Below, piece by piece: positions 4,166 to 47,352 of a DNA stretch of 47,352 nucleotides (positions within the stretch are counted from its first letter, which is position 1; each line of letters starts with the position of its first letter). The translations under genes were made by a program, and so were the position numbers. The notes beneath the pieces were generated by a model. It was not told where the DNA came from. It made no database searches and saw only the letters and a list, made by a program, of their open reading frames with translations. This stretch comes from an archaeon (GTDB taxonomy: Archaea > Iainarchaeota > Iainarchaeia > Iainarchaeales > DTGL01): the NCBI GenBank assembly GCA_029258755.1, contig JAPDKC010000004.1, positions 1-47,352 on the forward strand, written 5' to 3'.

Positions 4166-5746
4166 ATGGAATTTTTTGAGCATCCTCTTATAAAACCGCA
4201 AAGCATCGAGAAGAGAGCTTATCAGGAGCGATTGGTAAAAAGTGCTTTGGAAAAGGGCAATACGCTCATAGTTGCTCCAACCGCTCTTGGCAAAACTGTT
4301 GTTGCTGCTGTGCTTGCAGCTTATGCGCTTGAAAAAGGCAAGAAGGTGCTTTTTTTAGCACCAACAAAGCCGTTAGCGATGCAGCATCAAAAAACCTTGA
4401 AAAAAATCCTTAACATCCCTAAAAGCAGCATAGTTCTTATTACGGGGGCAAAGCCAGCCAAACACAGGTATTTGGCTTACAAAGAAGCAAAGGTAATAAG
4501 CGCTACGCCTCAATGCATAGAGAATGACTTAAAGCAAAAGCTGCTTAAGCTTGAGGAATTCGGCTTATGCGTATTTGATGAAGCCCACAGAGCCGTAGGA
4601 AATTATAGCTATGTGTTTATCGCTAATATGCTGAAGCAAACAAGCTGTTTAATTCTTGCACTTACGGCATCACCCGGCCATGAAAGAGAACGCATAGAAG
4701 AGATCTGCAAAAACCTAAATATAAAGAATGTTGAAATAGTTACGCTAAGCGACAAGGATGTTAAGCCATATGTAAGCGAAATAAAGCTTGAATGGCGAAG
4801 GGTTGATCTACCGCAAGAGTTTAAGGAAATAAAAAAAGCTTTAATGGAATTCATCAGGGAGAATGCTTCTAAACTAAAAGAGTGTCCGCTTACAAAGATG
4901 CCAAAGCAAGATTACTTCAATAGGGCAAAGCTGCTTAAACTTCAGGAGAAGGTAAGCAAGCTTATTGAAAAGAATGGAAAAGCGCAGCCAGAGCTTTATA
5001 CGCTAGCAGCAAGAATAGCAGCTCTTATAAAGGCAAATCACGCATTGCTCCTTATAGAAACTCAGGGACCAGAAGCTTTATGGGCATACTTAAATAGATC
5101 TTATAAAAAGGATAGGAAAAGCAAGGCAGGAAGCTTATTTTTCAAGGATAAAAACATTGCAAAAGCTGCCTTTTTCGCTAGAGAGCTTGTCGAAAGAAAT
5201 GAAAAGCATCCAAAGATAAAAATGCTTAAGCAGATAATAGCAGAACAGCTCGCTCAGAACCCAGAAAGCAGGATAATAGTGTTTAATCATTATCGCGACT
5301 CTGTAGCACTAATCGAGGAAGAATTAAATAAGATGCCTGATGTAAGGGCAAAACGCTTCGTTGGCCAGGCAAAGAGGCAGAGCAAAGGAATGAGCCAAAA
5401 AGAGCAAGCGCAAGTAATAAAGGAATTTGAAGCCAATAAGATCAATGTTTTGATAGCAACAAGCGTTGCTGAAGAGGGCTTAGATATTCCTGCCTGCGAT
5501 TTGGTTATTTTTTATGAGCCGGTGCCAAGCGAAATAAGGCATATACAAAGACGCGGCAGAACAGCCCGCTTGCGAAGCGGCAGGGTTGTAATCCTTATAG
5601 CAAGAGGAACGAGGGATGAAGCGTACTATTGGGCAGCAAAACACAAAGAAAGAAAAATGATAAGCGAATTAAAGAATATGAAGGAAAGGAAAAAAGGTGC
5701 TAAGCAGAAAACGCTAACTGATTATGCAGGTGATTGGGTTGGCTGA
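4166..5746 (+). CDS. Hef-type DEAH helicase (helicase half of Hef)
   Basis: APTALGKTVVAAVLAAYALEKGKKVLFLAPTKPLAMQHQ (motif I), FDEAHR (II), LTASPG (III), IQRRGRTAR (VI). C-terminal QKTLTDYA is PIP-box-like. Confidence 0.88.
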   Translation: MEFFEHPLIKPQSIEKRAYQERLVKSALEKGNTLIVAPTALGKTVVAAVLAAYALEKGKKVLFLAPTKPLAMQHQKTLKKILNIPKSSIVLITGAKPAKHRYLAYKEAKVISATPQCIENDLKQKLLKLEEFGLCVFDEAHRAVGNYSYVFIANMLKQTSCLILALTASPGHERERIEEICKNLNIKNVEIVTLSDKDVKPYVSEIKLEWRRVDLPQEFKEIKKALMEFIRENASKLKECPLTKMPKQDYFNRAKLLKLQEKVSKLIEKNGKAQPELYTLAARIAALIKANHALLLIETQGPEALWAYLNRSYKKDRKSKAGSLFFKDKNIAKAAFFARELVERNEKHPKIKMLKQIIAEQLAQNPESRIIVFNHYRDSVALIEEELNKMPDVRAKRFVGQAKRQSKGMSQKEQAQVIKEFEANKINVLIATSVAEEGLDIPACDLVIFYEPVPSEIRHIQRRGRTARLRSGRVVILIARGTRDEAYYWAAKHKERKMISELKNMKERKKGAKQKTLTDYAGDWVG

Positions 5747-6434
5747 GCAAAAGCAAGATACGCTTGCAAAATATGTTAAAAGCGATAAGCCGATCGTTTT
5801 TGCCGATGTAAGAGAAAGCCATTCTGAGGTAGCTGAATTTCTGCGCAGAAAAGGCGTTGATGTAAGGGAAATAATGTTGGAAATAGGGGATTATCTTATA
5901 AGCGATCAAATTGTTATAGAAAGAAAAACGGCAAGCGATTTCTTAGCAAGCTTGATAGATGGCAGGCTTTTCAATCAATTAACTCAAATGCTAAACTATG
6001 AAAAACCGTTGCTAATAATAGAAGGCACTCCAAGAGAGCTTTTCTTTCTGAGGAATATAAATGCAAATGCTTTAATAGGCGCTTTAGCTTCGATAGCTTT
6101 GGACTTTAGGGTTCCCATACTTTTCTCAGATGGCAGAGCTCAAACAGCCAACTATATATACATAATCGCAAAAAGAGCACAGCAAAGCAAGGAAAAAGAA
6201 ATAAGCTTGCGGAAAAAACAAGCTTTTTCGCTTAAGGAATGGCAGCAGTTTATAGTAGAATCTTTGCCGGGAGTTGGACCAAAAACAGCCAAAAGCTTGC
6301 TGAAGCATTTTGGCTCTGTCAAAGCTATATTTAATGCCTCTCTAAAAGATTTAGAAAAAATCCCCGGTATGGGTAAAAGGAAGGCGAAAAAAATAATAGA
6401 GGTTTTGGAATCAAAATATAATAATAAGGAGTGA
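5724..6434 (+). CDS. XPF/Mus81-like nuclease with helix-hairpin-helix (nuclease half of Hef)
   Basis: FADVRE...EIGDYLISDQIVIERKTASDF (ERK-type XPF nuclease) plus LPGVGPKTAKSLLKHFGSVKAI...IPGMGKRKAKKI (two HhH). Confidence 0.9.
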   Translation: MQVIGLAEQKQDTLAKYVKSDKPIVFADVRESHSEVAEFLRRKGVDVREIMLEIGDYLISDQIVIERKTASDFLASLIDGRLFNQLTQMLNYEKPLLIIEGTPRELFFLRNINANALIGALASIALDFRVPILFSDGRAQTANYIYIIAKRAQQSKEKEISLRKKQAFSLKEWQQFIVESLPGVGPKTAKSLLKHFGSVKAIFNASLKDLEKIPGMGKRKAKKIIEVLESKYNNKE

Positions 6435-10927: not shown

Positions 10928-13900
10928 ATGGTCAGGTATATAGTAGACAATAAAGCTGGGATTGTACAAGAGGAAAAGACTGTTTTGAACGTATTTGAAA
11001 AAAATATAGACAGGGCCCTAAAAGATGGCTTTCCATTGTCTTTGTATATCGCAGTTGGATTTTTCTTTTTTGAGGGTTTTCAGAAAATTTATCCGAAACT
11101 TAGAGAGCTTCATGAACGCGGCCTCCTTAAAAAGTTTTTCTTGATTATGGGGCCTGAAACCAGAAAAACAACCAAAGAGATTTTAGAGGCTTTAAAAAAC
11201 GATGCATCAATACTTGATAATGAAGCCTTTAATTTTATCAAAGAGTTATATGGTGAGGGCAAATTCGAGTTTAGAATATTTTTAGATAGGAATTTTCATA
11301 TAAAACTCTATATATTCGAAGTAGGCAACGATATAGAAATATGGGTTGGTTCAGCAAATCTGACAGAAGCAGGGCTTGAAGAAAATATAGAGCTGATAGT
11401 GCCTGTGGATGCACCAATATCTGAAGATAAGCAGCTGTATAAGACATTCTTCAGTGAAATATGGAAACGATCTACAGACAAAGTCGAAAAATTAAAAGTA
11501 ATAGATATAGTTAAAGAAGCTTCAGCAGAGAATTACCTTTACCTTTCCCCGCGAGAGTTTTTTGCTTATTTGCTAAAAATTCTCAAAAAAGAAAGGTTGC
11601 TTGAGAATATAGGAATAGAACTTGATTATCTTGGAAAATTTCAGAGAGCTACGATTGATCTCATAATGGACAGGATGGAGAAGTATGGAGGTTGCATTTT
11701 AGCTAATTCTGTTGGGTTGGGAAAAACAGATACTGCCTGTGCCATAATTAAATACTATATTGATAAAGGTAATAAAGTACTCCTAATTATACCGCCCATA
11801 TTAGAGAAACACTGGAAAAGGACACTGGAAAGAGTAGGGATTGATGAGAAGTATGTTACAATCCTTTCTCGTGGACTCTTGCAAAAGGCGGATTTTAATT
11901 GCGAAAAATACTCTGAATATCAGCTTATAGTAGTAGACGAAGCACATCACTTCAGAGTTTCGAAATCAGGAACAAAACAGAAATCAAATAGGAGGAAAAA
12001 TTTGGAAGAAATAACAAAAATCAATGAAAATGCACACGTACTTTTAATAACCGCAACACCCATCAATATAAGTCTTGTAGATCTTACAAGTTTGATAAAA
12101 TTGTTCGAAAGAGGTAAGTACTTATCTGCTTTCGAAGAAGAGGGAATCTCCTATTTGATAAAAGAACTGGAAAGAAAAGTTAAAAAGAAGGAGGGAATTG
12201 ATGAAAACCTGATTAAAATGGTAAGAGGAATTTCAGAAATTTTCGTGATAAGATTTGATTGGTTGGATATAATCAAACATTTCAGAGAGGATTTAATGAA
12301 AATTGCCGGAGTAAATAAAGTTGAACCGCCAGAAGTGGAAAAGGTTGAGTTTGAATACAAAAAAGAGATAGTTAATAAAGTTTTTGATAGGGTTGTCGAT
12401 TTTCTGGCAAAATTGAATTATGAGTATACGAAACTTTGGGAGGGAGAGTATAAAGAAGATAAGAATCTAATATGGTGGTATAAATGGAGATTATATAAAA
12501 GGCTTGAAAGCAGTTTATATGCTTTTAAAAGAAGTTTGGAAAAAATGAAAAAAAGAAACGAATTTTTAATTAAAATTTTTTTAAGAAAGAGCGAAAGAGT
12601 TTCTAAAACCGATCTCTTCTCGAAGGACAGGTTAGAAACAATACTCAATACCTTCAGCACGTTAAATAAAAACCAAAAAAATAAGGTAATAAGAAATATG
12701 AAGGAAGATATAAAAGAAATTGAAAAAATGCTCAAAAATGTCGAAACAGCTGAAAAAGAAGCTGGAGAGGATTCTAAACTAGAACAATTGTTGGCCATAA
12801 TAAAAAAAGAAAATAAGCCTATGCTTATTTTCTCAGAATCAAGAGATACTGTAATTTACATTTGTAAGTTTCTCAAAGAAAATGGCATTAAGAAATTTAC
12901 TTATGCTTATGGCGGTGGAATTGAAGAAGGAGAAGAATTCTATGGAGAACATATAAAAGAGCTGGATAAAGATAAAATCCAGGGGGAATTTAACGAAGGA
13001 AAATACAATATAATAGTTTCAACCGATATCCTTGCAGAGGGCATCAACTTACCTAGGGCGGATATTGTCATAAATTTCGATCTTCCGTACAACCCCGTTA
13101 AATTAATTCAAAGAGATGGAAGGGCTTTAAGATTAAACAATCCAAAGAAAATAAAAATCTATAATTTTGTCCCAGAAAAAAGTATTGATAAAGAACTGGA
13201 GCTGTTTGAAAAACTGAAAACAAGAGTGGAACTTATACTTGCTGCTGTTGGCTTGGATTTCGTTATATGGAGTGTAGAAGAAGGTAAATTGAAAAAATTT
13301 TCAGACAAACATAGAAAAAGAGCCGCTAGACTCATAAGAGAATGGAAGGAACTCCTAGCAACAAGAACTCCAGAGGAATTAAAATCCAGGATACTAACAT
13401 CTGTTTCTAAAGAGAATAAAATTTTGAAAGAGTTTGCAGAATTCTTTGGCATTTCCCGAGAAACCTTAGAAATATACAATAGAATATTCAAAAAACCAAT
13501 TTACACTTGCTTTAAAAGCGAGAAAGAAGGGTATTGGGTTGTATTTAAAAATAAAAAGAATTATTTATTTGCAGGAGAACTACAACCGACAGAGTTATTT
13601 AAAGGGGGAGCTAAGGGAAAAATAACCCGAAATGATGAGAACGCTATAGGGTCTCTGGTTAAGAAAGAGGTTGAAAAAAGAAGTTTAGAAATTCTGAAAA
13701 CACCAAAAGAAAGAGACAAAATTAGCAGAGAGATAGAAAAATTGCTGGGAAAATACCTTCCAGATATTCTACCAAGTTTTAACTCTAAAGCGTTTTCAGA
13801 AAAAGAAAAGAAAGAAATTCTCTCAAAACTTAGAAGATGTGAAAATGCTCCTTTATGGAGAGAAGAAGTTACTAAAAAAGAAGTTCGAGAACTTATATTG

Positions 13901-13972
13901 AGAAAAGTTTCAACAAAATACGAAACAGAAAAACCTCAAATAATTGCGGTGATAAAATATGTCAAAGTATGA
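10928..13972 (+). CDS. PLD-like nuclease domain fused to SNF2/DEAH helicase, defense-associated
   Basis: PLD: HIKLYIFE...WVGSANLTEAGLEENIEL. Helicase: ANSVGLGKTDTA (I), VVDEAHHFR (II), LLITATPIN (III), IIVSTDILAEGINLPRADIVINFDLPYNPVKLIQRDGRALRL (V-VI). Start placed at ATG 10928 (track start 10877 is an upstream alternative). Confidence 0.85.
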   Translation: MVRYIVDNKAGIVQEEKTVLNVFEKNIDRALKDGFPLSLYIAVGFFFFEGFQKIYPKLRELHERGLLKKFFLIMGPETRKTTKEILEALKNDASILDNEAFNFIKELYGEGKFEFRIFLDRNFHIKLYIFEVGNDIEIWVGSANLTEAGLEENIELIVPVDAPISEDKQLYKTFFSEIWKRSTDKVEKLKVIDIVKEASAENYLYLSPREFFAYLLKILKKERLLENIGIELDYLGKFQRATIDLIMDRMEKYGGCILANSVGLGKTDTACAIIKYYIDKGNKVLLIIPPILEKHWKRTLERVGIDEKYVTILSRGLLQKADFNCEKYSEYQLIVVDEAHHFRVSKSGTKQKSNRRKNLEEITKINENAHVLLITATPINISLVDLTSLIKLFERGKYLSAFEEEGISYLIKELERKVKKKEGIDENLIKMVRGISEIFVIRFDWLDIIKHFREDLMKIAGVNKVEPPEVEKVEFEYKKEIVNKVFDRVVDFLAKLNYEYTKLWEGEYKEDKNLIWWYKWRLYKRLESSLYAFKRSLEKMKKRNEFLIKIFLRKSERVSKTDLFSKDRLETILNTFSTLNKNQKNKVIRNMKEDIKEIEKMLKNVETAEKEAGEDSKLEQLLAIIKKENKPMLIFSESRDTVIYICKFLKENGIKKFTYAYGGGIEEGEEFYGEHIKELDKDKIQGEFNEGKYNIIVSTDILAEGINLPRADIVINFDLPYNPVKLIQRDGRALRLNNPKKIKIYNFVPEKSIDKELELFEKLKTRVELILAAVGLDFVIWSVEEGKLKKFSDKHRKRAARLIREWKELLATRTPEELKSRILTSVSKENKILKEFAEFFGISRETLEIYNRIFKKPIYTCFKSEKEGYWVVFKNKKNYLFAGELQPTELFKGGAKGKITRNDENAIGSLVKKEVEKRSLEILKTPKERDKISREIEKLLGKYLPDILPSFNSKAFSEKEKKEILSKLRRCENAPLWREEVTKKEVRELILRKVSTKYETEKPQIIAVIKYVKV

Positions 13973-16900
13973 TCTTGAATTTCTCAAAGAGAAAGGTTTC
14001 TTTAAAGAAATTGTAAAAGATGAAATAGATGGAAAGACTGTGTTTTTAGACCCAAAAACCTCTTTTGCATACGTAGAAGTTGACAATTCTTCGCAAGTAG
14101 AAGAATTCAAAAAGAAAATCCTTAAAAAATTTGAGAGTGTTTATTACATCTGGTTTTGGATTCCAAACGAAACTAAACTAAAATTTTTTAGAAAAATAGG
14201 TGGAATTAAGTGGTTTTGGTTTTCCCCACGAAAAGAAAGGAAGGAAACTAAGAAGAGCAAAAAGGAAAACTTAGGAAAATTTTCAGCTAAAAATATAAAT
14301 ATTCTTTTCGATACCAAAGACATTGTAAATCGTTTTTACAATGAGTTATGGAAAATAAGAATAAAAATGGCTAAAAGCATTAGAGAGTTGAAAGATGAAG
14401 GAAATAAGCTCTTTGTGGCCCAAAAATTCATAGACCGACTAATTTTCTTTTATTTTGTTTCTCAGTTAGGCTTAATAAAAATTAGATATAGAGGAAACGA
14501 AATAAAACTAACAAAAGAGAAAACTAGAAAATTCATGGAAGATATTGGCAAATATCTTAAAAATGATAGCAAGATTCTCGAATTCTTCAATAATATTTTT
14601 TTCAATGTTCTTGCCAAGGTTAATGAGTTAGGTTGGGCGGCCCATTCATTTACCATAGCAGGAGATTATATTGAAGTGAAAGGTCCTGCTTTAGATGGAG
14701 GCCTCTTCAAAGAAGATTGTTTTGAAGGTAAGAAAGAAGGGGAAATCAAAATAAAGCACATTGGTGAGCTAATCCAATTTTTAAACCGGTATAACTGGAT
14801 TGTAGGCGAAGAACTACCTGACGAAGATAGAATAGGCGATCTAACACCAGAGGTTATTGGACATATTTATGAAAAATTGGTTGTTTCTTTAGAACAGATG
14901 GGAGAAACCTTAAAGAAAATTAATCTTAACAAATTCTCAGTAACAAAAAAAGGTTTGAAAGCGGGAAGAAAGAGAATAGGGGCTTATTACACACCTGAAG
15001 AGATTACGAACTACATTTCGAAAAATACAATTTTCCCATTCATAAAAGACAGATTAGAAGAAAGGTTTGGACAAAAAGGAAGAGCTTTCTTCGAAAAAGA
15101 ATCTGAAAAATACATCTTTCACAAAGGAAAGAAAAGATATTCTCCAGAAGAATTAAAAATAATAAAATACCTTTATTTTGAAATTTTAACTAAACTCAAA
15201 ATTTGCGATAATGCTTGCGGCTCTGGCAGTTTTTTGATTGCTGCGGGCGATATTTTACTCAGATTGTATAGCAGAGTTTTGAAGATCCTAGAAGAAAACC
15301 TCCCTGAAGACAAAGATGTAAAGAATGTTTTAGAAAAAATAAGAAGATCTCCGAGTAGAAATTACTATGTCGTGAGAGAAATTATTGTAAACAATTTATA
15401 CGGCGTAGATATAATGAAGGGTGCTGTTGATATAGCGAGATTAAGATTGTGGCTTTGGTTAATTTCTCAAGTTAAATCAGAAGAAATAGAAGGAAAAAGA
15501 TTGGAAACCTTGCCAAACTTGGATTTTAACATAATGTGTGGAAATTCTTTAGTAGGTTTTATGGATATAGAAGATATTGATTTTATAGATAAACAGAAGA
15601 CACTTTCTGCTTGGCTAGGAGACAATAAAATAGAATGGTTAAAAAGCCTAGCAAAGAAAAAGCAAGAATTTAAGAAAATGCCTATAAACGAGACTCAAAA
15701 ATTTAGAGAAAAATTGGAGAAAGAACTAAATGAAGCAAGGAAAGTTTTGAATGAAGAGTTTTATAACAGGTTAAAAGCCAAAGGAATTAAAATTTCTTGG
15801 GGAGAATTTTTGAAATTAAAACCATTTCACTGGGGCTTTGAGTTTTACGAAGTGTTTGATTTAGAGAAGCCAAAGGAAGAAAGGGGTTTTGATGTGATAA
15901 TTGGGAATCCTCCACACGGCGCAAAAGTTTCTGATATTGAAAAAAAATTGTGGCGTAGCTTTTATAAATTAAAAGAGAGGGGATTAGACAGCGCTAAAAC
16001 ATTTATTGAAAGGAGTCTCTTATTACTTCGTCTAAATGCCTCCTTAGCACTTGTAATACCAAAACCTTCAACTTACTCCTATTCATGGGAAGACTTTAGG
16101 AAGTTCGCTAGAACATATAGAATTACTCATTGTATTGACTTAGGCAAAGCTTTTGAGGATGTAAAACATGAACAAATAGTGATAATTTTGAGAAACAGCC
16201 AAGTAAGAGAGCGCAAATATGTTGGAGGTTATTTTGACAAAACAAAAGGTAAAATCATAGAGAGGGCTTTTATTACGTATGATATCTATCACATTTTACC
16301 ATGTAATGTTACTTCTGATGAAATCACCGTTATAAAATATTTACTTGAAAAAGATTTTATTACTCTTTCAGGTTTTGACGTTTTTAGAGGATTGCCAAGG
16401 AATCTGGCTTCTAATCGTGGAGAACCTTGTATAAGAGGTAAAGAAATTGATAGATATTATGTTTCTCAACCAAAAGATTGTGTAAAGTTAAATAAAATTG
16501 ATCAAAGAAGAGTTTTTCGGCTAAAAAAGAAAAAGGTTATTACTCAAAGAATTATTGCACACGTTACAAAGCCGATACACAGGATAATAATTATGGCATA
16601 TCCTGATGAAAAGGGATTGTTGACTTTTGAAACTGTGACTAACATAGTTCCTAAAGAGGGTCATTCCCCTAAAACCCTTTCCCTGCTCCTAAATTCTAGA
16701 TTTGTTAGTTGGTTTACTTACTTGGTTATTTACAATAAAGCAATAAGAGACATGGATTTTGATGCCTTTTTTGTTAAAAGAATTGTTATACCAAATTTAT
16801 ATAACAATACTTCTCACACGTTAGATATTTTAGCTGAATACATGCTTTTCCTCAACGCAACAGAAGAAAGAAGAATAAAAGAAAAAAAACTAATTGATTT

Positions 16901-17252
16901 CATTGATAAGCAAATAATTGACTCTTTGGTTTACGAGCTTTACTTCAAAGAAAAATTCTACGAGGAGAAACTATATGGGAAAAATGATTATATTTTGCTC
17001 AGATTAGTAGAACCATATTTGAAATCTATAAATTACGATAGGTGGAACGCATTGTATTGGAAGAAACAATTAGGAGAAAAACTAAGTGAAAGAGAAGAGA
17101 GTGAATTAGCTAAACTTGAAAAAGAAAATCTTAAAATTATTAAAGAAGTTATTGAAAAGATTAAAAAACACAAGAAAATTATAGAGTACATAGAGAAAAT
17201 AAAATCCTATCCATGGATAGAAATTGTTGAGGGTAGAAAAAATGGAAAATGA
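13959..17252 (+). CDS. Eco57I/COG1002-like DNA methyltransferase (Type IIG/PglX-like), NPPH motif IV
   Basis: CDNACGSGSFLIAAGDILL (motif I), FDVIIGNPPHGAKVS (motif IV), IGAYYTPEEITNYI (motif X-like); 1097 aa with long C-terminal TRD-like region. Confidence 0.85.
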   Translation: MSKYDLEFLKEKGFFKEIVKDEIDGKTVFLDPKTSFAYVEVDNSSQVEEFKKKILKKFESVYYIWFWIPNETKLKFFRKIGGIKWFWFSPRKERKETKKSKKENLGKFSAKNINILFDTKDIVNRFYNELWKIRIKMAKSIRELKDEGNKLFVAQKFIDRLIFFYFVSQLGLIKIRYRGNEIKLTKEKTRKFMEDIGKYLKNDSKILEFFNNIFFNVLAKVNELGWAAHSFTIAGDYIEVKGPALDGGLFKEDCFEGKKEGEIKIKHIGELIQFLNRYNWIVGEELPDEDRIGDLTPEVIGHIYEKLVVSLEQMGETLKKINLNKFSVTKKGLKAGRKRIGAYYTPEEITNYISKNTIFPFIKDRLEERFGQKGRAFFEKESEKYIFHKGKKRYSPEELKIIKYLYFEILTKLKICDNACGSGSFLIAAGDILLRLYSRVLKILEENLPEDKDVKNVLEKIRRSPSRNYYVVREIIVNNLYGVDIMKGAVDIARLRLWLWLISQVKSEEIEGKRLETLPNLDFNIMCGNSLVGFMDIEDIDFIDKQKTLSAWLGDNKIEWLKSLAKKKQEFKKMPINETQKFREKLEKELNEARKVLNEEFYNRLKAKGIKISWGEFLKLKPFHWGFEFYEVFDLEKPKEERGFDVIIGNPPHGAKVSDIEKKLWRSFYKLKERGLDSAKTFIERSLLLLRLNASLALVIPKPSTYSYSWEDFRKFARTYRITHCIDLGKAFEDVKHEQIVIILRNSQVRERKYVGGYFDKTKGKIIERAFITYDIYHILPCNVTSDEITVIKYLLEKDFITLSGFDVFRGLPRNLASNRGEPCIRGKEIDRYYVSQPKDCVKLNKIDQRRVFRLKKKKVITQRIIAHVTKPIHRIIIMAYPDEKGLLTFETVTNIVPKEGHSPKTLSLLLNSRFVSWFTYLVIYNKAIRDMDFDAFFVKRIVIPNLYNNTSHTLDILAEYMLFLNATEERRIKEKKLIDFIDKQIIDSLVYELYFKEKFYEEKLYGKNDYILLRLVEPYLKSINYDRWNALYWKKQLGEKLSEREESELAKLEKENLKIIKEVIEKIKKHKKIIEYIEKIKSYPWIEIVEGRKNGK

Positions 17253-17811
17253 AAAGTTAGATGAATTAGAGGTAATAGAAAGATATATCATTCTATTATT
17301 GGGAGTTAAAAATAAACCCATCCCTTCGCGTGAACATCTTCAAAAAGAGTTATTTATTCTCTCAAAAGCGAATCCAAAAATTTCTGAATATATTACTTTC
17401 GAAAAACATTACGAGGGACCTTATTCCATAGATGTAGACGATATCATAAAGAATCCTACGTATTATCCTGGAGCCATCTGGATTGATAAAAAAGGGCGAT
17501 GCGGGCTTACCCCTAAAGGAAAAAACATATATAATAAGATTATTAAAAAATATTCTGAAAATTTAAAATTTCAGGCTCTTATCAATTCAATGAAGATGAT
17601 TAGAAAAATATATGAAAAACTGTCTAAAGATGAACTTCTTTTCATAATGTATGCAACCTATCCAGAATACAGAGAAAAATCAAACCTTTCAGATAGATTA
17701 TTCTCTCCTACGAAAAGAAAGGAGTTAGCTGAGAAGTTATTAAAAAAAGGGGTTATTACCAAGAAAAGATACAAAGAGCTGGTAAACTATGATCAAGGTA
17801 GTTCCCGATAG
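17242..17811 (+). CDS. YwgA/DUF4065-like protein (possible antitoxin or accessory)
   Basis: ILLLGVKNKPIPSREHLQKELFIL...FEKHYEGPYSIDVDDII...LTPKGKNIYNKI pattern. Confidence 0.5.
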   Translation: MENEKLDELEVIERYIILLLGVKNKPIPSREHLQKELFILSKANPKISEYITFEKHYEGPYSIDVDDIIKNPTYYPGAIWIDKKGRCGLTPKGKNIYNKIIKKYSENLKFQALINSMKMIRKIYEKLSKDELLFIMYATYPEYREKSNLSDRLFSPTKRKELAEKLLKKGVITKKRYKELVNYDQGSSR

Positions 17812-18328
17812 CAGCTTTTACATATGTTTCATTGATGATATAAATAAACCAGAATACTTGGCAAAGATATTAATTCATGAATTTTTCACATTTGTTATTG
17901 GAGAGAAAGTTAAAAAAGAAATCATGAAATCGCCTCACTATAGTGCAATAAGAGAAATCCTTTGTAATCATACTCAATATTTTGAGTATTATAATTACGG
18001 TGAAATATTAAGGCCCTTCTTCTCACTTGATGAAATAAAAAAAGGTGAACATGAAGTTATTGCAATTTCATATATACTATACCTACACAAAAATACATTC
18101 ATAGCGATTCTCGACGATTGTGCAGGGAGAAAATTTATAGATTGTAACCTCCCCCAAATTTCCAAAAATGTAACTGGGACAGTGGGTTTCATAAAACTTT
18201 GCTATTGCAACTATCATGTCTTTTCAAAAAAAGAAACCATAACTATTTTAAATTTGATAAAAAGTTCAAGATTCAGAGTTGAAGAGGAAGTTGTGGATGA
18301 GACCTTGAAAGAAATAGAAAGGTGTTAA
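17789..18328 (+). CDS. PIN-domain protein
   Basis: VVPDSSFYICFI, KKGEHEVIAISYI, AILDDCAGRKF, TGTVGFIKL: PIN acidic residues and terminal G-T-x-G. Confidence 0.7.
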   Translation: MIKVVPDSSFYICFIDDINKPEYLAKILIHEFFTFVIGEKVKKEIMKSPHYSAIREILCNHTQYFEYYNYGEILRPFFSLDEIKKGEHEVIAISYILYLHKNTFIAILDDCAGRKFIDCNLPQISKNVTGTVGFIKLCYCNYHVFSKKETITILNLIKSSRFRVEEEVVDETLKEIERC

Positions 18329-18330
18329 AA

Positions 18331-19506
18331 ATGACAAAAAGCATAGATATAAAAGAGAGTATTTATGATAAAAACTCTGAGTTTAATATTAAAAGATTCA
18401 AAATTGGAAAAATAACTATAGAGAGACCAACTAGAACAATAAATGCCAAAATATTAACAAAGAACTTATTGAGGTATGTAATAGAAAATTTTTCAAATGC
18501 TATTTTTGAATATTCTAAACTAGTGAGTTTAAAAGCAGTTAATTATATACTATCAGAAACCAGTGATGTAAAAATTCAAAAGTTTTTCGGATTCAAAAAT
18601 TGGATGGAAGGAAATCCCTACATCTTTTCTCAGACGCTTACGTTCAACCCATACAAAGAATTTGGAGATATTGAGAAAATGTCTGGCTATCTTGATTATT
18701 GCTACAATTTTTCAGATCCAATTTTATTAATACCAAACATAAAAATTGAAAAATATGATAGAAATACGGGCAATAAAGTACCGATAATAAATATAAAAGA
18801 ATATATACAATTTGTTAAGGCTGCGTTCCAAATATTAAATTACAAAAATAAGAAACCAATTTTTGTTCCAATGTCTTTAAAATTTGGAATTGATGATACT
18901 AAAAAACTGGCGCGCGAATATATAAAAAATGAATTCTTCAATGTCTGGATTGATTTTGAAAGTTCTGCGATTACTAAATCAAAGGTGTCAAGAATAAGAG
19001 CATTCCTTAGAGAGTTCGATTTTGCTGAAAGGTTAGATAATCTTATAATTTTTTCAACAAATATAAAAAGAGAAATAATTTCAAACCTTAAAAGCGATAG
19101 AACACCTGCGTCTGATGTTCTAGCAACTCTAGTAGGATGTAATCTGGTTGGAGTTAATAGAGAGCCTCCAAGACCAATAGAAAATACTTTGGACAAAGAG
19201 CACCTTGCTGAATTAAAAAAGCATAAAGCCAGAGTATTTGACCCCAATACGTATTATTACCTCAAGCTGGAAATATCAGATTATAATCACAAAATTCGTA
19301 ATTTACTTATGGACCCAAAATTTAATATTTTATTTAACTCAAGTCTAATTGATAAAGAATTTTTCTCTCAAACAAACTATTTCCTAGAAAAAGAAAGTAT
19401 TAAAGATTATATCGCCAAAAAAGCAATGATGAAAGAATATAAAGAGGGGGAGCTTATAAAATTGCTTTTTCATGGAGAGGCGAGGAAAATAATAGAATGG
19501 TTTTAA
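18331..19506 (+). CDS. Hypothetical protein, possible TIM-barrel-like fold, last gene of the operon
   Basis: 391-aa ORF with repeated hydrophobic strands (DPILLIPNI, KPIFVPMSL, FNVWIDFE, NLIIFST, CNLVGVN). No family recognised. Confidence 0.7.
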   Translation: MTKSIDIKESIYDKNSEFNIKRFKIGKITIERPTRTINAKILTKNLLRYVIENFSNAIFEYSKLVSLKAVNYILSETSDVKIQKFFGFKNWMEGNPYIFSQTLTFNPYKEFGDIEKMSGYLDYCYNFSDPILLIPNIKIEKYDRNTGNKVPIINIKEYIQFVKAAFQILNYKNKKPIFVPMSLKFGIDDTKKLAREYIKNEFFNVWIDFESSAITKSKVSRIRAFLREFDFAERLDNLIIFSTNIKREIISNLKSDRTPASDVLATLVGCNLVGVNREPPRPIENTLDKEHLAELKKHKARVFDPNTYYYLKLEISDYNHKIRNLLMDPKFNILFNSSLIDKEFFSQTNYFLEKESIKDYIAKKAMMKEYKEGELIKLLFHGEARKIIEWF

Positions 19507-19689: not shown

Positions 19690-19757
19690 GTAATATTCTC
19701 ATAATCTCTAAGAATGTTCTCATTTTTTATGAGAAAAGTTTAAATATTTTATGAGAA
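19684..19757. promoter_or_regulatory. pAgo operon promoter/operator with repeated TTCTCAT/ATGAGAA heptamers and TATA-like box
   Basis: TTCTCAT at 19696-19702 and 19717-19723; ATGAGAA at 19729-19735 and 19751-19757; inverted pair TTATGAG(19684-19690)/CTCATAA(19698-19704); TTTAAATATTTTAT at 19739-19752. Confidence 0.7.
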
Positions 19758-19768
19758 TTATAATCTAT

Positions 19769-20212
19769 ATGAAAATGCAAATTGTAGAAAACAAAGAAAG
19801 AAAGAAAATAGAAAGCTATCTTGCACAGGTCGGTAAAGCTTCTATTAACCAAATTGCGGAGGCTACAGGCTTATCTTGGGCAACAGTTAAAAAACATCTT
19901 GAGTATTTGGAAGGCATAGGAAGAGTCCATGGCGAGCACTTAGGAAATTCTATTATTTACTTCTTTAATGGTAATGGTAAGTGGCAAAAGAGAGTTCATT
20001 TGAACTCCACTCACATTTTATTTCTTGATACATTTATTTCGCCATTTGGTGAGCCATTCATTAGAATCAAAGAGGTTAAAAAGAAGGGGGATAAATGGGT
20101 AACTTTCGGAGAAGTGATGATTACTAAAGAACGTATAGAAGATGTGAAAGAATTTTTGGAGACAATCAAAAGACATATTGACATATATAGTGCGAAAATT
20201 GATTCGAGGTGA
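19769..20212 (+). CDS. Winged-helix protein with possible PC4-like C-terminal domain, co-transcribed with pAgo
   Basis: SINQIAEATGLSWATVKKHLEYLEGIGRV (wHTH) then TFISPFGEPFIRIKEVKKKGDKWVTFGEVMITKERIEDVKEFLETI. Start 19769 chosen from TATA-box spacing (track 19751). Confidence 0.7.
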   Translation: MKMQIVENKERKKIESYLAQVGKASINQIAEATGLSWATVKKHLEYLEGIGRVHGEHLGNSIIYFFNGNGKWQKRVHLNSTHILFLDTFISPFGEPFIRIKEVKKKGDKWVTFGEVMITKERIEDVKEFLETIKRHIDIYSAKIDSR

Positions 20213-22500
20213 GGAAAGTGTACTCAAATATGTTTCTGTCAGTAGCTCCAATAGAAAATGTAGAGGCTTATTATTATATGCCAGATCAGGTTATGGATCC
20301 TAAAGAATTTTATAAAGTTATGAAAGGTTTGGAGAACAAGCTTTTTCGCAGAGGGTTTTCCACTTGTACAAGGGGGGATAACCTAATAGTGGTTGGGTGT
20401 GGAAAATTAAACGAGAGTGAAAGGATAAATAAGTTTACATTTTCTTTGTCGAAGGATAAAATCGTTCTAACACCAGCCAAAAATCAACAACAGCTTAAAC
20501 AACTTGTTTATTCGGCTCTTAAACAAGTAGCAAGAAAAAAAGGGTATGAAGGCCCTGAAACACAAAAATTTTTTAAAAAAGAAGCTTATAAAAAGGGTTT
20601 CTTCACATATCACCAAGGTTTTTACTGTGCAATCGATGTATTTAATGATGGAAGAATTGGAATATGGTTAGATCCCACAGTAAGATGGCGGCAAACTATT
20701 CCCTGCTTTGTTGAGTGGTGCAAGCAACACAACAGGTTCGAAAAGAAATTAATTCGAGATTATTTAATAGGAAAAACTGCTTTATGTCCAGAGGTTAAAA
20801 CTTATAGAAAGTATAAAGTAAAAATCGTGGATGTCATTTTTAAACCGATCAACCGTTTTGAAATTTTTACAAACGGAAGAATTCTTACACTCTACGATTA
20901 TTGGACAAAATATAGTGAACCCCACAAAAGATGGTTGGAAAAAAATAACATTGTGTTGGATCCGGCGGAGAATTTGGTAATTCAAGTACAACTTTCGCAT
21001 ATCAATAGAAGATTATTTTTTCCGGCATCATTATTACAGCTCATCATTGATGTAAATGACCCTGTACTTCCCGAAGGAGTTCTTAGTGAAAAAATGACAT
21101 TAAAACCAAAAGAAAGAATAAGAGAAACATTTAAATTGTTTGAGGAATTACTTACAGAAGGTTTGAAAATTGGAGACAAAGTAATAAAATTCCAGAAAAA
21201 TCTTATCATGTGGGGCCTAAAAGAGAACGAGAAATATGGAGTACCACTCTATTTATCAACCCCTCCTTTAGTATTTGGGGAAAATAGAATATGCTACTCA
21301 GATGGTCTATGGAATGAGCCAAACCTAAGAGAATTTCTTTCAAAATATGGTCCTTACACCAAAAAAGAAACCGTTAAAATAAGATGTATTGTTCCAATGG
21401 AATTAAAACAACATGTAGATGCCTTTGTTACTACTCTAAATAGAAATGCGAACGAATTAAAATTAGGAAAATTAGCTTTAGTAGGGATAGAAACCATCGA
21501 TAGAAACCACCCAGACAGATATCTAAGAATTTGTAAAAAACTAGCAAGTAAAGTTAAAGACAAAGAAGAAATTATCATAGTTGTTTTACCAAAAGAAAAT
21601 GTGATGAAAGCATATTATTCATCTAAACGAGGTTTGGGGCAGTATCAAGTAAAAAGTCAAATGATAAAATACGAAACATTTCTATCTATTATAAAGAATA
21701 CTGCCCATCCTTCGATTCAGGATAACTTGGTAGCACAAATATATGATAAATCTTTAAGTTGTAGGGAATCTATTTGGCATTTAGCAAGACCTGCCGGAGG
21801 CGTTGATCCTAACAAAATTGTTTATTTTATGGGGTTTGACATCTCTCGGGCGCCAGAAAAGAGAAAAGAAGCTGCAGCCTACGCTGCAATTTGCGATAGT
21901 TATGGCCGGATACTTTATCGAAAAGCAATAGATTCTCATAAAGGGGAAAAAATTCAAGCAAAAGTTCTGAGTGACTGGTTTTTTGATGTAGCTTCGTCAA
22001 CTTATGATGAAACTAAAGAAAAAAAAGTTTTAGATGAGCTCATTTTATTCAAAGATGGTCCCATACCACAAAATCAACTAGTGGATTATAAAAAAGGCTC
22101 GTTAGATGCAAAGAATAGACTAATAGAGGAAGATATAATGAGCGAGTCAGGTAACATTCGGGTAATTTCGGTTACAAAAAAAGGGCCTTATAGAATATAT
22201 GGGTCAAAATCTCGTAATTTTCAGATTAAAAACGTAGGGTTATTGTTAGATGATAAGGAAGCCATTATAGCTACTAGTTTGTCTTTTCAGGGTACCCCTT
22301 CCCCTTTAAGGTTAAAATTGGAGTTTCAGATTCAAGAAAATATGAAAATAGATCAAATATTGAGAATTTTCAATGATTTACGATATCTTGATTGGAGTTC
22401 TTTATACAAACAGCCTAAAACAATACTTCCCCTACACATAGTCCAAAACCTTGCCAAACTAAGCAAAGAGGATATCGAAGTTCCATACATCCCAAGATAA
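20209..22500 (+). CDS. Long prokaryotic Argonaute (pAgo), probably catalytically competent
   Basis: PIWI: VYFMGFDISRA (D544, codon 21838-21840), SHKGEKI (E580), LILFKDGP (D616), QGTPSPLRL, C-terminal LPLHIVQNLAKL. MID: YYSSKRGLGQYQVKSQMI...DNLVAQIYDKSL. GTG start at 20209 or at 20218 behind GAGGTGAGG. Confidence 0.88.
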   Translation: MRKVYSNMFLSVAPIENVEAYYYMPDQVMDPKEFYKVMKGLENKLFRRGFSTCTRGDNLIVVGCGKLNESERINKFTFSLSKDKIVLTPAKNQQQLKQLVYSALKQVARKKGYEGPETQKFFKKEAYKKGFFTYHQGFYCAIDVFNDGRIGIWLDPTVRWRQTIPCFVEWCKQHNRFEKKLIRDYLIGKTALCPEVKTYRKYKVKIVDVIFKPINRFEIFTNGRILTLYDYWTKYSEPHKRWLEKNNIVLDPAENLVIQVQLSHINRRLFFPASLLQLIIDVNDPVLPEGVLSEKMTLKPKERIRETFKLFEELLTEGLKIGDKVIKFQKNLIMWGLKENEKYGVPLYLSTPPLVFGENRICYSDGLWNEPNLREFLSKYGPYTKKETVKIRCIVPMELKQHVDAFVTTLNRNANELKLGKLALVGIETIDRNHPDRYLRICKKLASKVKDKEEIIIVVLPKENVMKAYYSSKRGLGQYQVKSQMIKYETFLSIIKNTAHPSIQDNLVAQIYDKSLSCRESIWHLARPAGGVDPNKIVYFMGFDISRAPEKRKEAAAYAAICDSYGRILYRKAIDSHKGEKIQAKVLSDWFFDVASSTYDETKEKKVLDELILFKDGPIPQNQLVDYKKGSLDAKNRLIEEDIMSESGNIRVISVTKKGPYRIYGSKSRNFQIKNVGLLLDDKEAIIATSLSFQGTPSPLRLKLEFQIQENMKIDQILRIFNDLRYLDWSSLYKQPKTILPLHIVQNLAKLSKEDIEVPYIPR

Positions 22501-44435: not shown

Positions 44436-45927
44436 ATTCCAGCTGATCCTGCTGGCGGGCACTGCTATGGGAGTGCGACTAAGACATGCAAGTCTTAGAG
44501 CGCTAGCCATGGAGCGCTCTGGCGGACGGCTCAGTAACACGTGGGTAATCTACCCTGGGGAGGGGTTAATCCCGGGAAACTGGGGCTAATGCCCCATAGG
44601 CAACAGCTGCTGGAATGCGCTGTTGCCGAAAGGCAGCTGCACCATGCTGCAGCTTGCGCCCCAGGATGAGCCTGCGGCGGAATAGGTTGTTGGTGGGGTA
44701 ACGGCCCACCAAGCCTAAGATCCGTACGGGCCTTGGAAGAGGGAGCCCGGAGAAGGGCACTGAGATAAGGGCCCTAGCTCTACGGAGCGCAGCAGTCGCG
44801 AAACCTCTACAATGCGCGAAAGCGTGATAGGGGTACTCCCAGTGCCAGCTCTGCTGGCTTTTGCCGAGCCTAAAAAGCTCGGCGAATAAGTGGGGGGTAA
44901 GATACGTGCCAGCCGCCGCGGTAACACGTACCCCACGAGTGGTGCCCACTTATATTGAGCCTAAAACGTCCGTAGCCTGTCCGGCAAGTCGCCTGTGAAA
45001 TCGGTCAGCTCAACTGACCGGCGTGCAGGCGATACTGCCGGGCTCGAGGCCGGGAGGCGGCAGGGGTATTCCCGGGGTAGCGGTGAAATGCGAAGATCCC
45101 GGGAAGACCACCGGTAGCGAAGGCGCCTGCCGAGAACGGACCTGACGGTGAGGGGCGAAAGCCAGGGGAGCGACCCGGATTAGATACCCGGTTAGTCCTG
45201 GCCGTAAACGATGCGGACTAGGTGTTCCGTCAGCGTAAGCTGTCGGAGCGCCGAAGGGAAGCCGTTAAGTCCGCTGCTTGGGAAGTATAGCCGCAAGGCC
45301 GAAACTTGAGGGAATTGGCGGGGGCGCACTTACAAGGGGTGGATGCTGCGGTTTAATTGGACCCAACCCCAGGAACCTCACCAGGGCCGACAGCAGGATG
45401 ATGGTCAGCCTGAAGGGCTTACCTGACACGCTGAGAGGTGTTGTATGGTCATCGTCAGCTCGTGCCATGAGGTGTCCTGTTAACTCAGGCAACGAGCGAG
45501 ACCCGCGCCCCTAGTTGCTACCTCCCTAATTGCAGGGAGGGCACTCTAGGGGGACTGCCCTGGCAACAGGGAGGAAGGAGCGGGCGACGGTAGATCTGTA
45601 TGGCCCGAATGCCCTGGGCTACACGCGGCATACAATGGCCGGGTCAATGGGCTGCGAGCCCGAAAGGGTGAGCCAATCCCCTAAACCCGGTCCCAGTCCG
45701 GATCGAGGGCTGCAACCCGCCCTCGTGAAGGTGGAATCCCCAGTAATCGCGTGTTATCAACGCGCGGTGAATACGTCCCCGCGCCTTGCACACACTGCCC
45801 ATCAAGCCAACCGAGTAGAGCTTAGATGAGGCGCTCTCATCTGGGAGCGTCGATTCTAGGCTCTGCGAGGGGGGCTAAGTTGTAACAAGGTGTCCGTAGG
45901 GGAACCTGCGGACGGATCACCTCCTTC
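44436..45927 (+). rRNA. rrs: 16S ribosomal RNA
   Basis: ATTCCAGCTGATCCTGCTGG start, GTGCCAGCCGCCGCGGTAA, ATTAGATACCCGGTTAGTCC, CTTGAGGGAATTGGCGGGG, end GGATCACCTCCTT. Confidence 0.97.
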
Positions 45928-45936
45928 ATTTTAAAA

Positions 45937-45970
45937 AGAGCTGCACTGGCCTCAAATGGCTTTTGGGCTC
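45937..45970 (+). promoter_or_regulatory. 3' strand of 16S pre-rRNA bulge-helix-bulge processing stem
   Basis: AGAGCTGCACTGG-CCTC-AAA-TGGCTTTTGGGCTC. Confidence 0.92.
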
Positions 45971-46013
45971 CGAGCGAACCCGTGGTTTCATCTAGCATGC
46001 TCAAAAAAACTTT

Positions 46014-46112
46014 GGGCCCATAGCTCAGCGGAAGAGCGCTGCCCTTGCAAGTATCTCCATTTAAGGTAATCAAGAGAGGCAGAGGCCACGGGTTCGAATC
46101 CCGTTGGGTCCA
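46014..46112 (+). tRNA. tRNA-Ala (TGC) with about 27-nt intron, in the 16S-23S spacer
   Basis: GGGCCCA...TGGGTCC+A; anticodon stem CTGCC/GGCAG, loop CTTGCA then intron; T-arm CGGGTTCGAATCCCG. Confidence 0.92.
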
Positions 46113-46221
46113 CTTTACCTTTCCTTTAAAATCAACTGTCCCAAGCTTTTTTGGGGCAGAGGACTAGCATGCTTACATTAAGCATGTGATGATGTCCGCA
46201 TAGACCGCCGCGCTGCGTGTG

Positions 46222-47352
46222 AACAATAAGCCACCTAGTGGATGACTAGGCTCAAGAGCCGAGGAAGGGCGTGGCAAGCTGCGATAAGCCCGGGCGAGCC
46301 GCATGCAGGCTTAGAACCCGGGATTCCCGAATTGCTCCGTAAGGAGCGGGAACGCGGCGAACTGAAGCATCTTAGTAGCCGCAGGAAAAGAAAGCAATAG
46401 CGATGCCGTGAGTACCGGCGAGGGAAAGCGGCAGAGGGCAAACCGAATCCGCTAGCGAAAGTTAGCGGAGATGTGGGGTTAGGGCCCGGGTAGGCCTAAG
46501 GAAGCAAAGCCGAAGTCCCCTGGAACGGGGCGCCATAGAGCGTGAAAGCCGCGTAGGCAGAGCTTCTATGGCCATTCCCGGTGTCCCAGAGTAGCGTGCG
46601 TTGGATTTCGCGCGCGAAGGTGGGAGACTTTAACTCCCAACCCTAAATACTCCTTGAGACCGATAGCGCACTAGTACCGTGAGGGAAAGTTGAAAAGCAT
46701 CCCTAACGGGAGGTGAAAAGCGTCTGAAACTAGGTGGCTACAGGCCGGTGCGGCCCTTAAGAAGCGAAGCCCTCGAAGCGAGCTTCTGCAAGGGAGCGAG
46801 CGAAGAGGGCAGATCGGGGTTGCACCGTTCGTCTCGAAACACGAGCGAGGGAGTTTACCGGTGTGGCAAGGCTAACGCCTTCAAGGCGGCAGCCGTAGCG
46901 AAAGCGAGGTCCCCGCAGCCGCATAATGCGGTCAGGGGGAGCGTGTGAAAGCGCGTTAGTCACACCGGTAAGACCTGAAACCGAGCGATCTACCCCTGGG
47001 CAAGGTGAAGCCCTCCTTCCGGAGGGTCGAGGCCTTCAACCGGTGCTAGTCTATCTGCTCGGGTGACCTGGGGGTAGGCGCGATATACGACTCGCGCTCG
47101 GAGATAGCAGGCTCCCCCCGAAGTAACCCTAAGGTTAGCCTGGCCGGAGAGAGGCAATAGTGTAGAGATACTGATTAGAGGGTATCGGGCCGAGAGGTCT
47201 GGCCCTCTTATCAAACTCCGAAGCTATTGCCCTCGTAGATGGCCGGAGTAGGGGCACGTGGGAAAGCCGCGTGTCCTTAAGGGGAACAACCCAGACCCAG
47301 GTTAAGGCCCATAAGTGCCGGTTAAGTGCTAAGCGGAAGGGCGTCTTTGCCC
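46222..47352 (+). rRNA. rrl: 23S ribosomal RNA, 5' part (truncated by window end)
   Basis: AATAAGCCACCTAGTGGATGACTAGGCTC near the 5' end; ACCGATAGCGCACTAGTACCGTGAGGGAAAGTTGAAAAGCA. Exact 5' end uncertain. Confidence 0.93.

Follow-up and report, generated by a model that had tools for sequence, protein, structure and literature searches.

The five overlapping or nearly abutting genes at positions 10928–19506 of an archaeal DNA stretch of 47,352 nucleotides (nt) (contig JAPDKC010000004.1; the whole stretch is referred to here as the window) are two separable, independently recurring modules joined end to end. Genes 1 and 2 encode a nuclease-helicase and a DNA methyltransferase, a pair that appears from its domains to be restriction-modification (RM)-like. 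Genes 3, 4 and 5 encode a predicted antitoxin, a predicted PIN-domain RNase toxin and a protein of an undescribed family; they are best read as a UPF0175/PIN toxin-antitoxin cassette that has been enlarged by a new third component, in a defence island. For the row as a whole we favour, with some reserve, an arrangement of two defence modules in one operon beside a third, in which the second module is an autonomous three-gene toxin-antitoxin cassette coupled to the RM-like pair.

All five open reading frames (ORFs) are collinear on the + strand. Genes 1 and 2 overlap by 14 nt, genes 2 and 3 by 11 nt and genes 3 and 4 by 23 nt, and a gap of 2 nt separates genes 4 and 5. These junctions, re-read from the sequence, agree in position and strand with those given by an earlier account of the DNA made from the letters alone (the sequence-only reading). 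Chance ORFs are not a concern for genes 1–4, because these are long ORFs with domain matches and homologs; gene 5 is protein-coding, with homologs at 17–37% amino-acid identity in other genomes. The proposal that the row is one co-translated unit holds for this one genome, by virtue of the 11-nt overlap between genes 2 and 3.

Recurrence of genes 3–5 without genes 1 and 2

A scan of the whole genome collection with gene 5 returned a single locus, L006, in which a YwgA-like gene, a PIN gene and a gene 5 homolog stand in the same order as in the window. Profile searches added five further loci, in genomes G309, G345, G421, G479 and the divergent G686, the first three of which came from a sample of 371 genomes of the phylum of L006. 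The window and the six other loci all keep the order gene 3–gene 4–gene 5, with overlaps of at most 29 nt and gaps of at most 13 nt. Genes 3 and 4 overlap by 4–29 nt in six of the seven, and are separated by a 13-nt gap in L019. The terminal gene is therefore conserved, as had been suspected, with homologs in six other loci.

In all six of these loci the cassette recurs with no helicase–methyltransferase pair adjacent to it. Searches by tblastn with the window helicase, methyltransferase, winged helix-turn-helix (wHTH) protein and Argonaute (see below) found no homolog in the stretches fetched around the six loci. A full-length homolog of the helicase is likewise missing from the six genomes, the best match being a partial one to the helicase C-terminal domain (1e-30). 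The helicase–methyltransferase pair, in turn, occurs on two plasmids, and genes 3–5 are absent beside it on both.

This distribution bears directly on the claim of the sequence-only reading that the five genes form one composite DNA- and RNA-targeting system, in which the helicase and methyltransferase would recognise foreign DNA and trigger the PIN RNase directly via genes 3 and 5. The 11-nt overlap does make a translationally coupled unit in this genome, and low GC (guanine plus cytosine) content is common to the whole unit. However, the recurrence of genes 3–5 without genes 1 and 2 in six of six other loci, the occurrence of genes 1 and 2 without genes 3–5 on two plasmids and the failure to find a full-length helicase homolog in the six genomes make a composite system improbable. 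The sequence-only reading had itself named, as one ground for giving up its claim, homologs of the last three genes that never stand with the helicase–methyltransferase pair, and that is what the six other loci show. Functional coupling of the two modules in this genome is possible, but is not a conserved property.

The remaining 86 genomes of the phylum to which the window belongs yielded no gene 5 homolog, and nothing further came from plasmids or viral contigs. The proteins of genes 3 and 4 had no matches in plasmids, and gene 5 of L037, the most divergent cassette, had none in plasmids, phages or viral contigs. Three weak matches to the gene 5 profile (G222, G402 and G753; E 0.001–0.005) were set aside: the first was lost with a larger profile, the second is a short broken stretch and the third lies in an unrelated ORF.

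A predicted antitoxin and a predicted PIN-domain toxin

Gene 3 (17242..17811, + strand; 189 amino acids) is a predicted antitoxin consisting of a DarG-C-terminal/YwgA-like domain followed by a UPF0175-like tail, as judged from PADLOC and from profile alignment. The DarG C-terminal region is matched by gene 3 in six of six core members (PADLOC), and the top profile match among PDB sequences is also DarG (chain 7yk3), at a weak score (E=0.75). The label YwgA-like, given earlier to this protein, holds only if it is taken to mean the DarG C-terminal region. The tail is recognised in the gene 3 protein of L037, which carries a C-terminal UPF0175 domain scoring 30.0 bits against a Pfam cutoff of 27.9. 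This protein aligns by profile with the core set over nearly its full length (98%), tail included.

Gene 4 (17789..18328, + strand; 179 amino acids) encodes a PIN-domain protein, a predicted RNase toxin of the DUF3368 kind. The PIN acids D7, E44, G86/E87 and D109 are conserved in all seven members, which supports the PIN label; the RNA-targeting character that had been proposed for the protein is supported as well, and PADLOC adds a match to PDC-S70 (E=3e-7). DUF3368 itself is matched in two relatives of gene 4, in both cases weakly and below the cutoff. PIN toxins with DUF3368 are known partners of UPF0175. UPF0175 (COG2886) and a PIN toxin form a described predicted toxin-antitoxin pair, in which the antitoxin gene lies upstream and overlaps (PMC2701414; PMC6929052). 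With a DarG/UPF0175-like gene 3, a PIN gene 4 and such pairs already described, an expanded toxin-antitoxin cassette is the simplest reading of genes 3–5.

Toxin-antitoxin genes need not serve defence, and a second explanation is that genes 3–5 are an ordinary selfish addiction module, with a third gene that hitch-hikes or stabilises, which simply landed behind an RM operon. UPF0175–PIN pairs are widespread as toxin-antitoxin loci (PMC2701414), the distribution of the cassette is patchy, and in L012 it has 28% GC between flanks of 46% and 42% and adjoins a ribosomal-protein cluster, that is, it is inserted beside housekeeping genes. The GC contrast in L012 suggests that the cassette is mobile. 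On the other hand, the third gene is likely to be needed, because it is kept in 7/7 loci in an overlapping register; and the cassette lies beside RM genes and an Argonaute gene in the window and near another, different N-6 methylase-like gene, together with a transposase-like gene, in L014 (by sequence inspection). Neither point is proof of a defence role, and we regard a purely selfish module as a less probable explanation that still deserves weight.

Genes for PD-(D/E)XK (Cas4-like) nucleases, matching Pfam PDDEXK_1, stand directly upstream of the trio in both L006 (211–1419) and L037 (162–845), and a similar-looking nuclease gene lies about 5 kb from the trio in L014 (2673–3320). These nucleases may be there by chance or may be loose partners.

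The third component

Gene 5 (18331..19506, + strand; 391 amino acids) is the third component of the cassette, a position that its six homologs always hold. Neither gene 5 nor its relatives gave a family match worth following in Pfam, PADLOC, PHROGs, NCBIfam or the PDB sequences. N-x-K-P, A-x-D and K-x-R...Y-x-Y are among the residues that do not vary in the seven members. Two AlphaFold2 models of the family, built with 6–7 sequences, have low overall confidence (pLDDT 56.6 and 50.6); the central core is better, with strands alternating with helices. Most Foldseek matches have TIM-barrel folds, dihydroorotate dehydrogenase, TGT and dihydrouridine synthase among them, at TM-scores near 0.3 or below, and gene 5 is possibly a partial TIM barrel according to these models.

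The sequence and fold matches raised the suspicion that gene 5 is a TGT/DpdA-like enzyme exchanging bases on RNA or DNA, in which case genes 3–5 would be a modification-restriction unit with the PIN protein cutting unmodified nucleic acid. The top two viral fold matches of the model are indeed phage queuine tRNA-ribosyltransferases (E=0.005–0.008), and a TGT is among the PDB matches with higher TM-scores. These scores, however, are just 0.23–0.32 for a low-confidence model, and the L037 model prefers dihydroorotate dehydrogenase, so a generic barrel resemblance suffices. Comparison of the seven-member profile with E. coli Tgt by hhalign, a weak test given its single-sequence target, gave a probability of 0.2%, no better than the 0.5% obtained with PyrD (dihydroorotate dehydrogenase), and kinship was found with neither. 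The TGT/DpdA identity was not confirmed, and we consider it highly improbable.

The helicase–methyltransferase pair

Gene 1 (10928..13972, + strand; 1014 amino acids) encodes a PLD/HKD-type nuclease domain fused to an SNF2-type helicase, with Pfam matches to PLDc_2, Helicase_C, ResIII and SNF2. The PLD-like domain contains HIK (residues 124–126) and GSAN (141–144), and is followed by the helicase motifs ANSVGLGKT (259–267) and DEAH (337–340). Gene 2 (13959..17252, + strand; 1097 amino acids) encodes an Eco57I-type N6-adenine DNA methyltransferase (Pfam Eco57I, E=3e-21; also MmeI_Mtase and TaqI_C) with the motifs DNACGSG (417–423) and NPPH (650–653) and a TaqI_C-like region. The domain assignments made by the sequence-only reading are thus correct in outline, and the domains support the RM-like logic that it saw in the two genes. 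The pair may be akin to an RM or BREX-related effector pair, judging by its domains, and we do not file it as a BREX-related member.

A tblastn search of plasmids with gene 2 located homologs of both genes together on two archaeal plasmids. On pMETOK01 of Methanothermococcus okinawensis the helicase is 46% and the methyltransferase about 36–47% identical to the window proteins; the order of the two genes is reversed relative to the window, and the genes lie apart. On the plasmid of Haladaptatus halobius the identities are 33% for the helicase and 31–32% for the methyltransferase.

Helicase-profile matches in G005 and G017 proved to be other PLD-SNF2 helicases with different neighbours, and not the pair. 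Near another PLD-SNF2 helicase, at L042 (5180–6768; relative G005, contig C7), lies a gene whose YwgA-like N-terminal part appears by eye to run into a DUF488-like part. A second gene comes after it and overlaps it; there was no NCBIfam match, and this may be another YwgA-type defence module.

Proposed mechanism

In the arrangement that we favour, two modules joined in one operon, the methyltransferase would mark the cell's own DNA through adenine methylation, and the PLD-SNF2 helicase would travel along and cut unmarked DNA, as their domains suggest. In the resting cell the gene 3 antitoxin would neutralise the PIN RNase, keeping it silent, and would probably repress the operon. An infection that perturbs the cell or puts the restriction module out of action could then cause the antitoxin to be lost or displaced; the freed PIN enzyme, if toxic as predicted, would cut cellular RNA, and growth and viral replication would stop. 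The gene 5 protein is, at a guess, a required sensor or modulator of toxin release.

Gene 3 starts within the final codons of the methyltransferase gene, which ties expression of the cassette to the RM module in this genome. Through this translational coupling the second module would probably act as a backup shut-down effector for the first. A backup role for PIN endoRNases at BREX and BREX-related loci has been described (PMC12839542), and such a tie is in keeping with it.

Several points weigh against this picture. The operon link between the two modules was seen in one genome only, that is, in one of the seven loci. Gene 3 of the window falls below the Pfam cutoff for UPF0175, where it was not detected, and gene 4 of the window has no Pfam match and so falls below the cutoff for DUF3368; the assignment of the window proteins to these families would thus rest on homology to divergent members. 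The role given to gene 5 is a guess. Seven members of the cassette are known, all from draft genomes, and three of their contigs are short (3.2, 5.9 and 9.6 kb); given the drafts and the short contigs, the evidence for the absences at the six other loci, and for that of a full-length helicase homolog in their genomes, is strong, not perfect.

A more ambitious proposal, which we put forward tentatively, is that genes 3–5 represent a new three-component archaeal toxin-antitoxin/defence class, in which gene 5, of an undescribed and possibly TIM-barrel family, would sense infection or act on RNA and so license the PIN RNase, and which could be plugged onto restriction operons at the level of translation as a fail-safe.

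Defence-system catalogues cover uncultured small archaea poorly. The trio offers a compact, testable toxin-antitoxin pair with an added DarG-like antitoxin domain and a constant third protein without known relatives; should gene 5 prove to be an enzyme, it would define a new functional family. Its junction with the RM operon illustrates how a backup effector may be captured by translational overlap.

The neighbouring wHTH–Argonaute pair and the low-GC island

The sequence-only reading did not include a wHTH–Argonaute gene pair at 19751–22500, which lies downstream in the same low-GC island. The wHTH gene (19751..20212, + strand; Pfam HTH_5, E=4e-5; Csa3 HTH in PADLOC, E=1e-8), whose real start may lie a few codons later, is upstream of a gene for a long prokaryotic Argonaute (20209..22500, + strand; 763 amino acids; Piwi, E=1e-12). 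Residues D544, E580 and D616 of this protein align with the catalytic tetrad of T. thermophilus Argonaute, and the fourth position is Q746 by hand alignment. The canonical fourth residue of the tetrad (DEDX) is D, H or K (PMC6299218); the Argonaute is divergent, with an apparently non-canonical D-E-D-Q tetrad. The 244 nt between gene 5 and the wHTH gene contain the repeated palindromic, operator-like elements TTCTCATAA/TTATGAGAA and a TTTAAATA box, which points to regulation of the wHTH–Argonaute pair on its own. Another association of an Argonaute with a PLD protein occurs on a haloarchaeal plasmid, that of Natrinema zhouii (L045, 6594–11233), where a gene annotated as phospholipase D family lies 14 nt downstream of a Piwi-domain gene.

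The window comes from a draft genome of 1.21 Mb and is archaeal, with a complete archaeal 16S and a partial 23S rRNA gene at 44436–47352. Its GC content is 29–33% between about 12 and 22.5 kb and about 39–41% on either side; the low-GC block thus exceeds the five-gene stretch and runs on through the wHTH and Argonaute genes to 22500. Ordinary genes occur in both flanks. To the left lie genes for a helicase, an ERCC4 nuclease, CGI-121 and a transporter, and to the right an RNase H-like gene and the genes for adenylosuccinate synthetase and adenylosuccinate lyase. On the left, at 4166–6434, a DEAD/Helicase_C gene overlaps an ERCC4-HHH nuclease gene on the same strand, resembling a Hef-type helicase-nuclease in two genes. 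No direct repeats of at least 18 nt, as possible integration ends, were found between positions 6.3 and 24 kb in the window. An empty insertion site was sought in six relatives by way of the adenylosuccinate synthetase flank and was not found, because synteny is not retained in them.

Comparison with known systems

The nearest described architecture to genes 1 and 2 is that of the Type-2 BREX-related (Hma-like) systems, which have an HKD-SNF2 helicase and an N6-methyltransferase and are centred on a DUF499 ATPase (PMC12839542). The HKD nuclease-SNF2 helicase and the N6-methyltransferase are both present in the window. However, DUF499 (HmaC, the defining component) has no match in the scan of the main genes between 491 and 26192, and DUF3780 was not found near the pair; membership in the Hma systems is ruled out by the missing DUF499 partner. 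With DISARM the pair shares an SNF2-type helicase and an adenine methyltransferase, which score like DrmD and DrmMI in PADLOC. It differs in that the PLD domain is fused to the helicase, in contrast with the separate DrmC, and in that there is no DrmA gene and no DrmB (DUF1998); gene 1 only cross-matches the DrmA model through its helicase core. BREX proper was rejected as well, as neither PglZ nor the BrxC ATPase was found. The statement of the sequence-only reading that partners of the DrmA/DrmB, PglZ, BrxC and HsdS types are lacking is borne out among the scanned genes (Pfam and PADLOC).

The second module resembles DarTG in the DarG C-terminal region of gene 3. It differs in its toxin, which is the PIN protein; neither a DarT ADP-ribosyltransferase nor a DarG macrodomain was found. 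The module also bears comparison with the UPF0175 (COG2886)–DUF3368 PIN (COG2405) pair, a VapBC-like composite. The antitoxin of the cassette has an additional N-terminal DarG-C-terminal/YwgA-like domain, the UPF0175-like tail of the core members is short and below Pfam detection, and an obligatory third gene, with no matching family, is present. In common with the described pair, the antitoxin gene lies upstream of the PIN gene and overlaps it, a UPF0175 tail is present in the divergent member, and the PIN acids are conserved.

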